This document shows positions 6,312 through 34,846 of a stretch of 64,000 nucleotides of DNA, one piece after another. Numbering within the stretch: the stretch's first letter is position 1; each line of letters starts with the position of its first letter. Below the pieces are notes generated by a model, which was given only the letters and a program-made list of their open reading frames with translations, was not told the DNA's origin and ran no database searches. Both the position numbers and the translations under genes were made by a program. The DNA lies in contig NZ_JAGQBA010000002.1 in the NCBI RefSeq assembly GCF_024345395.1, positions 310,001-374,000 on the forward strand, read 5' to 3'. This stretch comes from Cyanobium sp. Tous-M-B4 (GTDB lineage Bacteria; Cyanobacteriota; Cyanobacteriia; PCC-6307; Cyanobiaceae).

Positions 6312-6354
6312 TTTCGCTGCTGGCGCCTCGACCTGCGGCCCGTAGATTTCGTTG

Positions 6355-7446
6355 ATGCTTAAAGCCGGAATCGTCGGTTTGCCCAACGTCGGCAAATCGA
6401 CCCTGTTCAATGCCCTGGTCGCCAACGCCCAGGCCGAAGCCGCCAACTACCCCTTCTGCACGATTGAGCCGAATTCCGGTGTGGTCTCCGTGCCAGACCC
6501 CCGGCTTGACCAGCTAGCTGCGCTCAGCTCCAGCAAGGAGATCATTGCCACCCGGGTTGAGTTTGTCGATATCGCCGGGCTGGTGAAGGGGGCCAGCCAG
6601 GGAGAGGGTCTTGGCAACAAGTTTCTGGCCAACATCCGCGAGGTGGACGCAATCGTGCACGTGGTGCGCTGCTTCGAAAATGACGACGTGATCCATGTGA
6701 GTGGCTCGGTGGGGCCGGCCCGCGACGCGGAGGTGATCAACCTCGAGCTGGGCCTGGCCGATCTCTCCCAGGTGGAGAAGCGCCGCGAGCGGCTCAAGAA
6801 GCAGGTGCGCACCAGCAAGGAGGCCCAGCTTGAAGATGCCGTCCTCGAGCGCATCCAGGTAGAGCTGGAGGCCGGCGGTGCCGCCCGCAATGTGGCCCTC
6901 AGCGAGGAGGAGGCCCCGTTGCTCAAGCCCCTGGGGCTGCTCACCGCCAAGCCGATCATCTATGCCACCAATGTCAGCGAAGACGATCTGGCCAGCGGCA
7001 ACGCCTACTGCGAGGAGGTGGCAGCGCTGGCCCTGAAGGAAGGGGCGGGCACGGTGCGCATCTCGGCCCAGGTGGAGGCTGAATTGATTGAGCTTCCCGA
7101 GGAGGATCGCACCGAATTCCTGGCGGGTCTCGGCGTAGGGGAGGGCGGCCTGCAGAGCCTGATCCGCGCCACCTACGACCTGCTGGGGCTGCGCACCTAT
7201 TTCACTACCGGCGAGAAGGAAACCCGCGCCTGGACCATCCAGGCCGGCATGACCGCCCCCCAGGCCGCTGGCGTGATTCACACCGACTTCGAGCGCGGCT
7301 TCATCCGCGCCCAGACGATCGGCTACAAACAGCTGCTCGAGGCGGGTTCGCTGGTGGAAGCTCGCACCAAGGGCTGGCTGCGGGCTGAAGGCAAGGAGTA
7401 CGTGGTGGCTGAGGGCGACGTGATGGAGTTTCTGTTCAACGTGTGA
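6355..7446 (+). CDS. ychF: Ribosome-associated ATPase YchF (Obg/OLA1 family)
   Basis: YchF is a universally conserved TRAFAC-class P-loop NTPase that prefers ATP and associates with ribosomes; in bacteria it is linked to oxidative stress responses. The 363-residue protein has G1 (GLPNVGKST), G2/G3 ([21 protein letters not shown]), the variant G4 region (YATNVSE) and the C-terminal TGS domain ([12 protein letters not shown] to [13 protein letters not shown]). The ATG at 6355 directly follows an in-frame TTG; the ATG is preferred. A small conserved protein gene follows downstream. Confidence 0.95.
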
Positions 7447-29793: not shown

Positions 29794-32424
<2,631 letters not shown>

Positions 32425-32442: not shown

Positions 32443-33576
32443 ATGGCCGACCTCTGGATCGCAAACACCATCAGCGATTTGATTCAGGGCGATGTGAACG
32501 AGCACCTGCCCCTGGAGCGCATTCCTCTCCAGGGTGATGTGTTGGGATTGGGCACCACCACCAGCATCGACAACGGGGAGCTCACCTTCCTGCAGGATGC
32601 CGATGGCGTGGTCACCACGATCTGGAAATGCCAGGCCAGCGATGGCGGTATTCGGGCCTTGCGGCCTGGGGATGGCAGCAGCCACTTCCCTTACGTTTGT
32701 TTCAGCGGTGATGCCACCGCCGTGCGCACGCCGGTGGATCTGGCCAGCCTGAGCGAGGTGCGGGGCCGGCCGTTGCAGGAGCTGGTGGCTGAGGCGATTG
32801 CCCAGCTGCGGCAGCAGGGCCGGTTAGCAGAGGCGCCGATTTATGGCCTGCGCCTGGTGTCGCAGTGGGAGTCTCTGGTGATCACGGTGGCCTCAAAGTT
32901 GTGCATGGGGCAGCAGCGGCGCAACACCTCCGTGGCCAGCAGTGCGGCCAGCGATGGCACCGCAGCGCGAAGCATCTACCAACTGCTGCAGCACTACCGA
33001 TTAGCGCCGGAGAATCCCGGGGATCCCAGCGATCCGATCCGGTTTCTGGGCCGCTCCCTGGAGTGGGATTGCTGCGGCTTCTTCGACACCGATCCAGCCC
33101 AGGGCCGGGTCACGATCCCCGATCCCCACGCCCATCTGCATCTGCACGGCTGCAGCACTGATCTGCGTTACGGAGGCCATCTTCACCACGAACATCCCGG
33201 CACACGGCTGGCATCCCTGCAGCGGCTGGTGCTCTATCCCTTGCAGCAACTGCACCAGCTGGTGAGTGATCTGGCCATTGAGGCGCTGTACTTCCGCGAT
33301 GGCAGCGCCCACTTCACCGTGGCCAATCGTGGTGCCATGGATGTGAGCGATGTGGGCGTTGCCGTGGTTGTCAACGACAGCTATGGCGGCCATCGCTATC
33401 TGCGGCTCCCCTGGCTGGCGGCCGGTGCCAGTGAAACCTTCAGCGTTCCCCTGCAGCTCCCCGCGGGGTGCCATCGTCTCGAGGTGATCGCCGATCCCGA
33501 GGGTCAGATCCTGGAGGAGGCAGCTTTCCAGTTCAACAATCGCGCCACTCTCGACATCCAGCTGCCAGATGTCTGA
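32443..33576 (+). CDS. Acetolactate-decarboxylase-like domain joined to a CARDB-like domain
   Basis: A 377-residue protein. Residues about 5-255 follow the alpha-acetolactate decarboxylase pattern: DLIQGDVNEHLPLERIPLQG, GLGTTTSIDNGELTFLQDAD, a central LYGLRLV-like strand (APIYGLRLVSQWESL), and the metal site HAHLHLHG with GGHLHH further on, equivalent to the HxH...GGH zinc ligands of ALDC. Residues about 275-370 look like a CARDB/beta-sandwich domain (FTVANRGAMDVSDVGVAVVVND). Known ALDCs make acetoin from acetolactate, but this one is longer and its substrate is unproven. It overlaps the lycopene cyclase start by eight bases. Confidence 0.65.
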   Translation: MADLWIANTISDLIQGDVNEHLPLERIPLQGDVLGLGTTTSIDNGELTFLQDADGVVTTIWKCQASDGGIRALRPGDGSSHFPYVCFSGDATAVRTPVDLASLSEVRGRPLQELVAEAIAQLRQQGRLAEAPIYGLRLVSQWESLVITVASKLCMGQQRRNTSVASSAASDGTAARSIYQLLQHYRLAPENPGDPSDPIRFLGRSLEWDCCGFFDTDPAQGRVTIPDPHAHLHLHGCSTDLRYGGHLHHEHPGTRLASLQRLVLYPLQQLHQLVSDLAIEALYFRDGSAHFTVANRGAMDVSDVGVAVVVNDSYGGHRYLRLPWLAAGASETFSVPLQLPAGCHRLEVIADPEGQILEEAAFQFNNRATLDIQLPDV

Positions 33577-34846
33577 GCTGTTGGTTTTTGATGTGCTGGT
33601 GGTGGGTGCAGGCCCGGCGGCACTGGCTATCGCTGCCGAGCTGGCGGAGCAGGGGCTGGCGGTGGTTGTGCTGGCGGCAAGCGATTGCCGCGACCCCTGG
33701 CCCAACACCTACGGGATCTGGGGAGACGAGGTGGATGCCCTAGGCCTTGGCCACCTGCTGGAGCATCGCTGGAGCGACACGCTGAGTTATTTCGGTGCCG
33801 GCAGCAGCGATCCTGCCGATCCAGCCAACAGCCCCACCGCCCACGGCCGCGACTACGGCCTGTTCGACAAAAACAGGCTGCAGCAGTTCTGGCTGGAGCG
33901 TTGTGAGGCTGCCGGCGTGCAGTGGCTGCGCGGGCAGGCACTGGAGCTGAGCCATGGGGGCGGCCGCAGCCAGGTGGCCACCGCCGCAGGGGAAGTTCTG
34001 GAAGCAAGGCTGGTGCTGGATGCCAGCGGCCACAAGGCGGTATTTGTGCGGCGGCCCGACCAGGGGCCGGTGGCCGGCCAGGCGGCCTATGGCGTGGTGG
34101 GACGCTTCACGGCGCCGCCGGTGGAGCCGGGGCAATTCGTGCTGATGGATTACCGCGCCGACCATCTCAGCCCCGAGGAGCGCAGCGAGCCCCCCACTTT
34201 TCTCTATGCGATGGATCTGGGCCAGGGACGGTTTTTTGTGGAGGAGACCTCCCTGGCCCTGGCGCCACCGGTGCCCTACGCCACGCTCAAGCAGCGCCTC
34301 GAGCGGCGGCTGGCCCATCGCGGTGTGGCGATCGAGCAGGTGGAGCACGAGGAGTTTTGCCTGTTTCCGATGAACCTGCCCCTACCGGATCTGGATCAGC
34401 CCGTGCTGGCCTTTGGTGGGGCTGCGGCGATGGTGCATCCGGCCTCCGGCTACCTGGTGGGGGCCCTGCTGCGCCGGGCCCCGGCGGTGGCCGCAGCGGT
34501 GGCGGCGCGGCTGCGGGCTGAACCGGCCGCCACTTCGGCGGAGCTGGCCGCAGCTGGCTGGCAGGCGCTCTGGCCCCCGGAGCTACGCCGTAAACAGGCC
34601 CTCTACCAATTTGGGCTGGAGAAATTGATGCGCTTCTCGGAGCCCCAGCTGCGCAGTCACTTCGCCAGCTTCTTCTCCCTGCCCAGCGCCCAGTGGTATG
34701 GCTTTTTGACCAATACGCTCAGCCTGGGCGAGCTGCTGGCGGCGATGCTCGCCCTATTTGCCACGGCACCCTGGAGCGTGCGCTGGGGCCTGATGGGCAT
34801 GCGGGGCCGGGAGTTGCAGCTGGGACTGCGCATGCTGGATCCCTAG
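33569..34846 (+). CDS. crtL: Lycopene cyclase, CrtL type
   Basis: Cyclises lycopene ends to beta (or epsilon) rings in carotenoid synthesis at the thylakoid or plasma membrane. The 425-residue flavoprotein-like enzyme has the dinucleotide motif DVLVVGAGPAALAIAAEL, the family NTYGIWGDEVDALGL, the FLYAMDLGQGRFFVEETSL block with conserved acidic residues, and a late GGAAAMVHPASGYLVGALLRRAP. CrtL-b versus CrtL-e cannot be told from sight. It overlaps the ALDC-like gene, so the two are co-transcribed, and converges with the GH57 gene within eight bases. Confidence 0.92.
   Translation: MSELLVFDVLVVGAGPAALAIAAELAEQGLAVVVLAASDCRDPWPNTYGIWGDEVDALGLGHLLEHRWSDTLSYFGAGSSDPADPANSPTAHGRDYGLFDKNRLQQFWLERCEAAGVQWLRGQALELSHGGGRSQVATAAGEVLEARLVLDASGHKAVFVRRPDQGPVAGQAAYGVVGRFTAPPVEPGQFVLMDYRADHLSPEERSEPPTFLYAMDLGQGRFFVEETSLALAPPVPYATLKQRLERRLAHRGVAIEQVEHEEFCLFPMNLPLPDLDQPVLAFGGAAAMVHPASGYLVGALLRRAPAVAAAVAARLRAEPAATSAELAAAGWQALWPPELRRKQALYQFGLEKLMRFSEPQLRSHFASFFSLPSAQWYGFLTNTLSLGELLAAMLALFATAPWSVRWGLMGMRGRELQLGLRMLDP

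Follow-up and report, generated by a model that had tools for sequence, protein, structure and literature searches.

What kind of enzyme is encoded by an open reading frame wedged between gyrA and crtL in a cyanobacterium, and does its place beside a carotenoid gene say anything about its role? The frame belongs to Cyanobium sp. Tous-M-B4, with a genome of 2.74 Mb in 11 contigs, and was analyzed within a stretch of 64,000 nucleotides, here called the window. It starts 18 nt past the gyrA stop codon, and among named relatives the nearest found was Synechococcus sp. 8F6, whose protein is 94% identical to its product. Picocyanobacteria are abundant primary producers, and their dark and anoxic metabolism is poorly known. 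An earlier note, made from the DNA letters alone, had delimited this frame, quoted several motifs from it and read it as an acetolactate decarboxylase (ALDC)-like domain with a CARDB-like tail. The frame and the motifs are present as described (Table 1).

Table 1. Features of the locus, in window coordinates
Feature	Position	Strand	Basis
gyrA, upstream neighbor	29794..32424	+	PF00521, PF03989
ALDC-fold metalloenzyme with C-terminal CARDB domain, 377 aa (predicted)	32443..33576 (ATG at 32443, last stop-codon base 33576)	+	ORF, Pfam, AlphaFold, Foldseek, Z scores
ALDC-like domain, about residues 1–276	32443..33270	+	Fold match, profile–profile match, alignment
E46 codon, aligned with ALDC-invariant Glu (4bt2 E65)	32578..32580	+	Alignments
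T148 codon, invariant Thr where ALDC has invariant Arg (4bt2 R145)	32884..32886	+	Alignments
H233-L-H235 codons, presumed metal ligands 1 and 2 (4bt2 H194, H196)	33139..33147	+	Alignments
H246 codon, presumed metal ligand 3 (4bt2 H207)	33178..33180	+	Alignments
CARDB-like beta-sandwich, about residues 277–377	33271..33573	+	PF07705; 3idu (model residues 270–377)
crtL, lycopene beta cyclase, downstream neighbor	33569..34846	+	NF045687, 639.8 bits (cut-off 500)

Family Assignment and Predicted Fold

The catalytic part of the protein goes unrecognized at Pfam and NCBIfam cut-offs. The window protein scores 18.6 bits against PF03306 (ALDC; cut-off 25), over residues 6–51 only, and 16.4 bits against TIGR01252, the NCBIfam ALDC model (cut-off 180.65). 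The CARDB domain (PF07705) is found above its cut-off at residues 290–360 (E 1.4e-6, 28.9 bits, cut-off 22.7). Homologues are full-length and 52–94% identical, and within an alignment of 33 sequences that holds them and the window protein (A1), PF03306 is weakly matched by 32 members (E up to 0.1) and CARDB by all 33. A search of the PDB with the window protein returned two chance-level matches only, and one with the family profile returned three, the third being the ALDC structure 4bt2 at E 2.5. When profiles were compared with one another, 21 family members matched 16 cyanobacterial ALDCs with a probability of 93.3 (E 2.6e-7) over 183 columns that begin at the N-terminus and end at the GGH motif. 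The 16 ALDCs were also made into a profile; run filter-free at E 10 against the 21 members only, it reported all 21, with 20 above the HMMER inclusion line; the best of them (L010) matched in two colinear stretches, residues 10–82 and 225–266, the second of which falls in the HLH...GGH region.

The AlphaFold model, built with the 33 sequences, has a pLDDT of 88.0 and a pTM of 0.84, with pLDDT below 50 at residues 156–158 and 161–176. Among PDB entries, the model resembles ALDC structures most (Foldseek E 7.6e-9; Z 19.2–19.8, rmsd 3.0–3.4 over 210–216 residues), and its tail, residues 270–377, matches the CARDB domain 3idu with Z 14.6 over 102 residues, so that both halves of the domain reading in the earlier note are borne out. 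Proteins matching the CARDB part only reach Z 9–11. Full-length homologues, the PF03306 and CARDB matches across members and the likeness of the model to ALDC crystal structures together indicate that the frame is more than a chance one.

Three known systems invite comparison. With the ALDCs (PF03306/TIGR01252; AlsD, BudA; 4bt2, 6j92, 5xne) the window protein shares the fold, three histidines, the Glu of the DGE block and the Thr of the GLGT block, and it differs from them in the added CARDB domain and an extra segment at about residues 153–200, as well as in the active-site and partner differences described below. Human PTD012, or C11orf54 (DUF1907, PF08925; 1xcr), has a related fold (Z 14.3 to the model) and a zinc site of three histidines in a structure described as ALDC-related, and it is reported to be a beta-ketogulonate decarboxylase (commentary, PMC12435205). 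The window protein is nevertheless closer to ALDC, and PF08925 is absent from the families matched at E 0.1 by the 33 A1 members. A DUF1907 search of 194 cyanobacterial genomes gave no match, with the control genomes silent too.

CARDB domains (PF07705; 3idu, 2kl6) are found mostly in secreted, adhesion-type proteins. Unlike in that usual setting, the window protein carries its C-terminal beta-sandwich joined to an enzyme fold, and the N-terminus, judged by eye, has no signal-like look; by that look the protein would be cytosolic. A literature search on CARDB with acetolactate decarboxylase or Synechococcus gave nothing relevant among the matches listed, as judged by title and the start of the abstract.

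Active-Site Residues

The reference set comprised 16 cyanobacterial ALDCs, and the alignment made with it (A3) includes 21 homologues of the window protein. Residues that are invariant or nearly so in the 16 ALDCs include T76, E83, R163, H211, H213, H224 and E270 (L078 numbering). Residues 41–270 of L078 align with 23–253 of 4bt2, and we take the equivalents there to be T58, E65, R145, H194, H196, H207 and E253, in agreement with the alignment ranges; R145 and E253 are presumably active-site residues of ALDC.

Five of these seven positions are held, in the joint alignment, by T38, E46, H233, H235 and H246, which occur without exception in the 33 A1 and the 21 A3 sequences. The His triad, the Glu and the Thr are still invariant in 41% and 47% identical copies from two other cyanobacterial families. 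The other two positions have changed. Where all 16 ALDC rows have the Arg corresponding to R145, the homologues have T148 (21 of 21); Y134-G135 and W142 anchor the block around it, which is free of gaps. For the C-terminal Glu (4bt2 E253) there is no conserved counterpart, and mixed residues within CARDB take its place, in a part where the alignment is unsure. The earlier note had named the conservation of the HxH, His, Arg and Glu residues as a check: the three histidines, which align with the presumed metal ligands of 4bt2, are conserved, as is E46 in its DNGE block, whereas the Arg and the second, C-terminal Glu are not.

With T38, E46 and the His triad kept and the Arg and the C-terminal Glu lost, the presumed metal center appears retained and the pocket changed. 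Fold and His triad together make it likely that this is a metal-dependent enzyme with a putative metal center of three histidines. Judged by its residues, then, the protein is an ALDC-fold metalloenzyme and not a demonstrable ALDC. A literature search on the ALDC active site found no structural paper on it among the matches listed, and the part of PMC10466699 available names no ALDC active-site residue.

Distribution

Across picocyanobacteria the gene is accessory, and its distribution is patchy. Within the taxonomic family, matches were found in 28 of 151 genomes in one sample and 69 of 380 in a larger one, and in the 151-genome sample a full-length copy is present in 24 and broken pieces only in four. 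The locus L149 of one of these (G045, of the window's genus) shows such a copy: the gene is broken into two frames at about 6322–7439, with gyrA and crtL open. A sample of the phylum gave a match in 14 of 386 genomes, three of them outside the taxonomic family (G186, G258 and, with an internal stop, G267), and in the order of G258 the matches (2 of 100 genomes) were G258 and G267 themselves.

The surface Black Sea strain BSA11S carries the family (L052), and deep Black Sea strains are reported with ALDC and acetoin fermentation in the parts available of PMC6776005 and PMC8955281. Two contigs from metagenome-assembled genomes of Haliea (Gammaproteobacteria) also carry the gene (L057, L059), the L059 copy following a PepSY_TM-like gene; these represent either transfer between phyla or a binning question. 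In the tree the two Haliea copies are placed, at middling support (87/88), among copies from marine picocyanobacteria, and genomic context changes rarely, the context counts being approximate since L023 and L024 are labeled "other" with gyrA near. Mobile spread was rejected: plasmids, phages and a single viral-contig scan yielded no relative.

Relation to ALDC and Acetolactate Synthase

A true ALDC match is present in 26 of the same 151 genomes, including members of the window's genus (G106, G126). Stratified by genus, both genes are intact in 3 genomes against 8.3 expected (P 6e-4, with kinship within genera uncorrected), and in the 151-genome sample alone both are found in 2 against 4.7 (P 0.035). 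For ALDC, 24 of 40 further matching genomes were included, chosen by a long match and a completeness of at least 93%, and G484 was drawn from the phylum sample. The count leaves out four genomes with broken copies (G045, G035, G087 and G102), one with an internal stop (G603), one whose ALDC is in two pieces (G075) and one with no other genome of its genus for comparison (G002), together with genera that lack an intact copy and genomes of unlisted genus.

Alongside ALDC, picocyanobacteria hold a second family of this fold, one that tends to be present in genomes lacking ALDC, and this avoidance suggests that the niches of the two overlap. It may instead reflect ancestry or habitat within genera and not function. 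A simple swap is opposed by the four genomes with broken copies only, which have no ALDC match. Two genomes (G062, G484) that have an intact copy of the ALDC-fold/CARDB gene also hold ALDC fragments, and the fragments in G062 adjoin an ORF that by eye resembles a transposase.

The true ALDC gene sits in some genomes behind the gene for a catabolic acetolactate synthase (AlsS), and in some picocyanobacteria the two stand in tandem as alsSD (L083, L084, L114). Of the 56 genomes tested, a count apart from the 24 further genomes, 10 have the synthase at an identity of at least 65%, and each of the 10 has ALDC, as does G018, which holds pieces of the synthase. Among the 32 tested genomes with the ALDC-fold/CARDB gene or pieces of it, the synthase occurs only in G064 and G082, both with ALDC; G258 and G267 have a 32% match to it. 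The picocyanobacterial ALDCs carry an extra N-terminal segment with a ribbon-helix-helix look (by eye). At L085, L088 and L109, in genomes with no catabolic synthase, the true ALDC gene lies directly upstream of what appears by eye to be an era-like GTPase gene.

In G258 the ALDC-fold/CARDB gene is preceded by an MFS gene and, 107 nt upstream, a gene for a TPP enzyme; this enzyme matches indolepyruvate decarboxylase best, at 414 bits where the cut-off is 946. Genes 42–47% identical to the TPP enzyme over most of its length were found in 12 of the 151 family genomes. An intact ALDC-fold/CARDB copy occurs in 4 of these 12 and in 20 of the 139 others (P 0.10), and ALDC in 5 of 12 and 21 of 139 (P 0.035). 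The TPP decarboxylase was rejected as a partner, given that it does not clearly track the gene over the 151 genomes and goes with ALDC as much or more. A small fermentation cluster is suggested in two genomes, where a gene resembling pyruvate/indolepyruvate decarboxylase stands near alsSD on the opposite strand (G064:C1:237494-240439, G134:C1:73892-76756).

Possible Reaction

The best reading of the protein, to which we give roughly an even chance, is a metal-dependent decarboxylase with acetolactate or a similar 2-hydroxy-3-oxo acid as its putative substrate. Two ALDC-fold families with an assigned reaction, ALDC and, as reported, C11orf54, decarboxylate 3-oxo acids, which makes decarboxylation of a small 2-hydroxy-3-oxo acid the best guess; the name ALDC is withheld because the Arg and the Glu are lost and the synthase is missing. 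The avoidance of ALDC and the position of the gene behind a TPP-dependent decarboxylase-like gene in G258 count for the decarboxylase reading, the broken copies in genomes without ALDC against it. In such a mechanism the three histidines would hold a metal, probably zinc, and the metal would chelate the 2-hydroxy-3-oxo (or 3-oxo) acid, with E46 acting as acid/base and CO2 lost via an enediolate. With Thr in place of the ALDC Arg, and with the fused CARDB domain where the C-terminal Glu would be, the pocket would be rebuilt, and acetolactate may be bound differently or a close relative may be the substrate. The enzyme would serve as an accessory overflow or clean-up decarboxylase, and in picocyanobacteria its niche would largely coincide with that of classical ALDC. 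A decarboxylase would mean an added route, or a new substrate, for pyruvate overflow; an enzyme of another kind would show how the ALDC metal fold gains new chemistry.

A bolder form of the decarboxylase reading is offered tentatively. The protein could stand for a third ALDC-fold decarboxylase family, with CARDB closing the site in place of the C-terminal Glu and a Thr/Lys/His set standing in for the Arg. Such a family would act on a new 2-hydroxy-3-oxo acid or by a changed acetolactate mechanism, and would replace classical ALDC in many picocyanobacteria.

Alternatively, an unrelated metabolite might be the target, with the fold and metal serving a different reaction, that of a hydrolase, lyase or isomerase. 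Further invariant residues with no evident ALDC partner, among them Y84, C86, K152, R160, H184, W208, H249 and H251, would fit such a change, and PTD012 hydrolyzes p-nitrophenyl acetate in vitro (PMC12435205). This alternative is doubtful, as E46 and T38 are retained as in ALDC and both known assigned families of the fold, ALDC and C11orf54 (PMC12435205), decarboxylate 3-oxo acids.

We consider it rather unlikely that the protein is a plain acetolactate decarboxylase (EC 4.1.1.5) that turns acetolactate escaping from the valine-pathway synthase into acetoin. The common fold and His triad speak for this, as do the rarity of the gene in ALDC genomes and the two genomes, G062 and G484, that pair an intact copy with ALDC in fragments only. 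The exchange of Arg for Thr in every A3 homologue, the absent C-terminal Glu, the scores below Pfam and NCBIfam cut-offs and the absence of the AlsS partner from the tested genomes without ALDC all argue against it.

Two more readings have little in their favor: a part in carotenoid metabolism, weighed with the neighborhood below, and a catalytically dead binding protein, which the loss of two ALDC active-site residues might suggest and which is the least credible of all, given a His triad, Glu and Thr invariant down to 41% and 47% identical copies in two other cyanobacterial families.

The gyrA–crtL Neighborhood

The earlier note had called the gene coupled to lycopene cyclase, and in position this stands: the stop codon region overlaps the start of crtL by 8 nt. 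Operon structure and translational coupling could then imply a role with crtL in carotenoid metabolism. An overlapping match with crtL was also found at L045, and among 35 homologous loci in named genomes gyrA is present in 21 and crtL lies directly downstream in 17. Fourteen of the 35, however, have neither gyrA nor crtL within the fetched flank, some flanks being short at contig ends, and at L011, L041 and L024 the gene is placed after crtL instead. Twenty genomes in which the gene had no match yielded 19 crtL loci, and gyrA is next upstream of crtL in 18 of them, in one case (L170) with a toxin–antitoxin-like pair between; the exception, L186, begins 748 bases before crtL. Because the gyrA–crtL pair also exists where the gene is absent and many of the homologues sit in other places, the link to crtL looks positional only and the place beside a carotenoid gene accidental. 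The carotenoid role was accordingly rejected as very improbable.

Most simply read, the gene was inserted into a gyrA–crtL gap that already existed, and this gap seems open to insertions. The pair at L170, in the sister genome G143, occupies it at about 700–1490; it has by eye the look of a toxin–antitoxin system, and from its motif we take it to be DUF1778-like/GNAT-like. No constant neighbor partner was seen, since neighbors vary among the homologous loci; those identified include S66 LD-carboxypeptidase, YCII-domain and PepSY_TM genes (Pfam) and, by eye, a gamma-glutamyltranspeptidase-like gene. At three loci (L036 9113–10190, L040 9119–10218 and L042 3520–4619) a membrane-like ORF of about 350 amino acids lies on the opposite strand between the gene and crtL.
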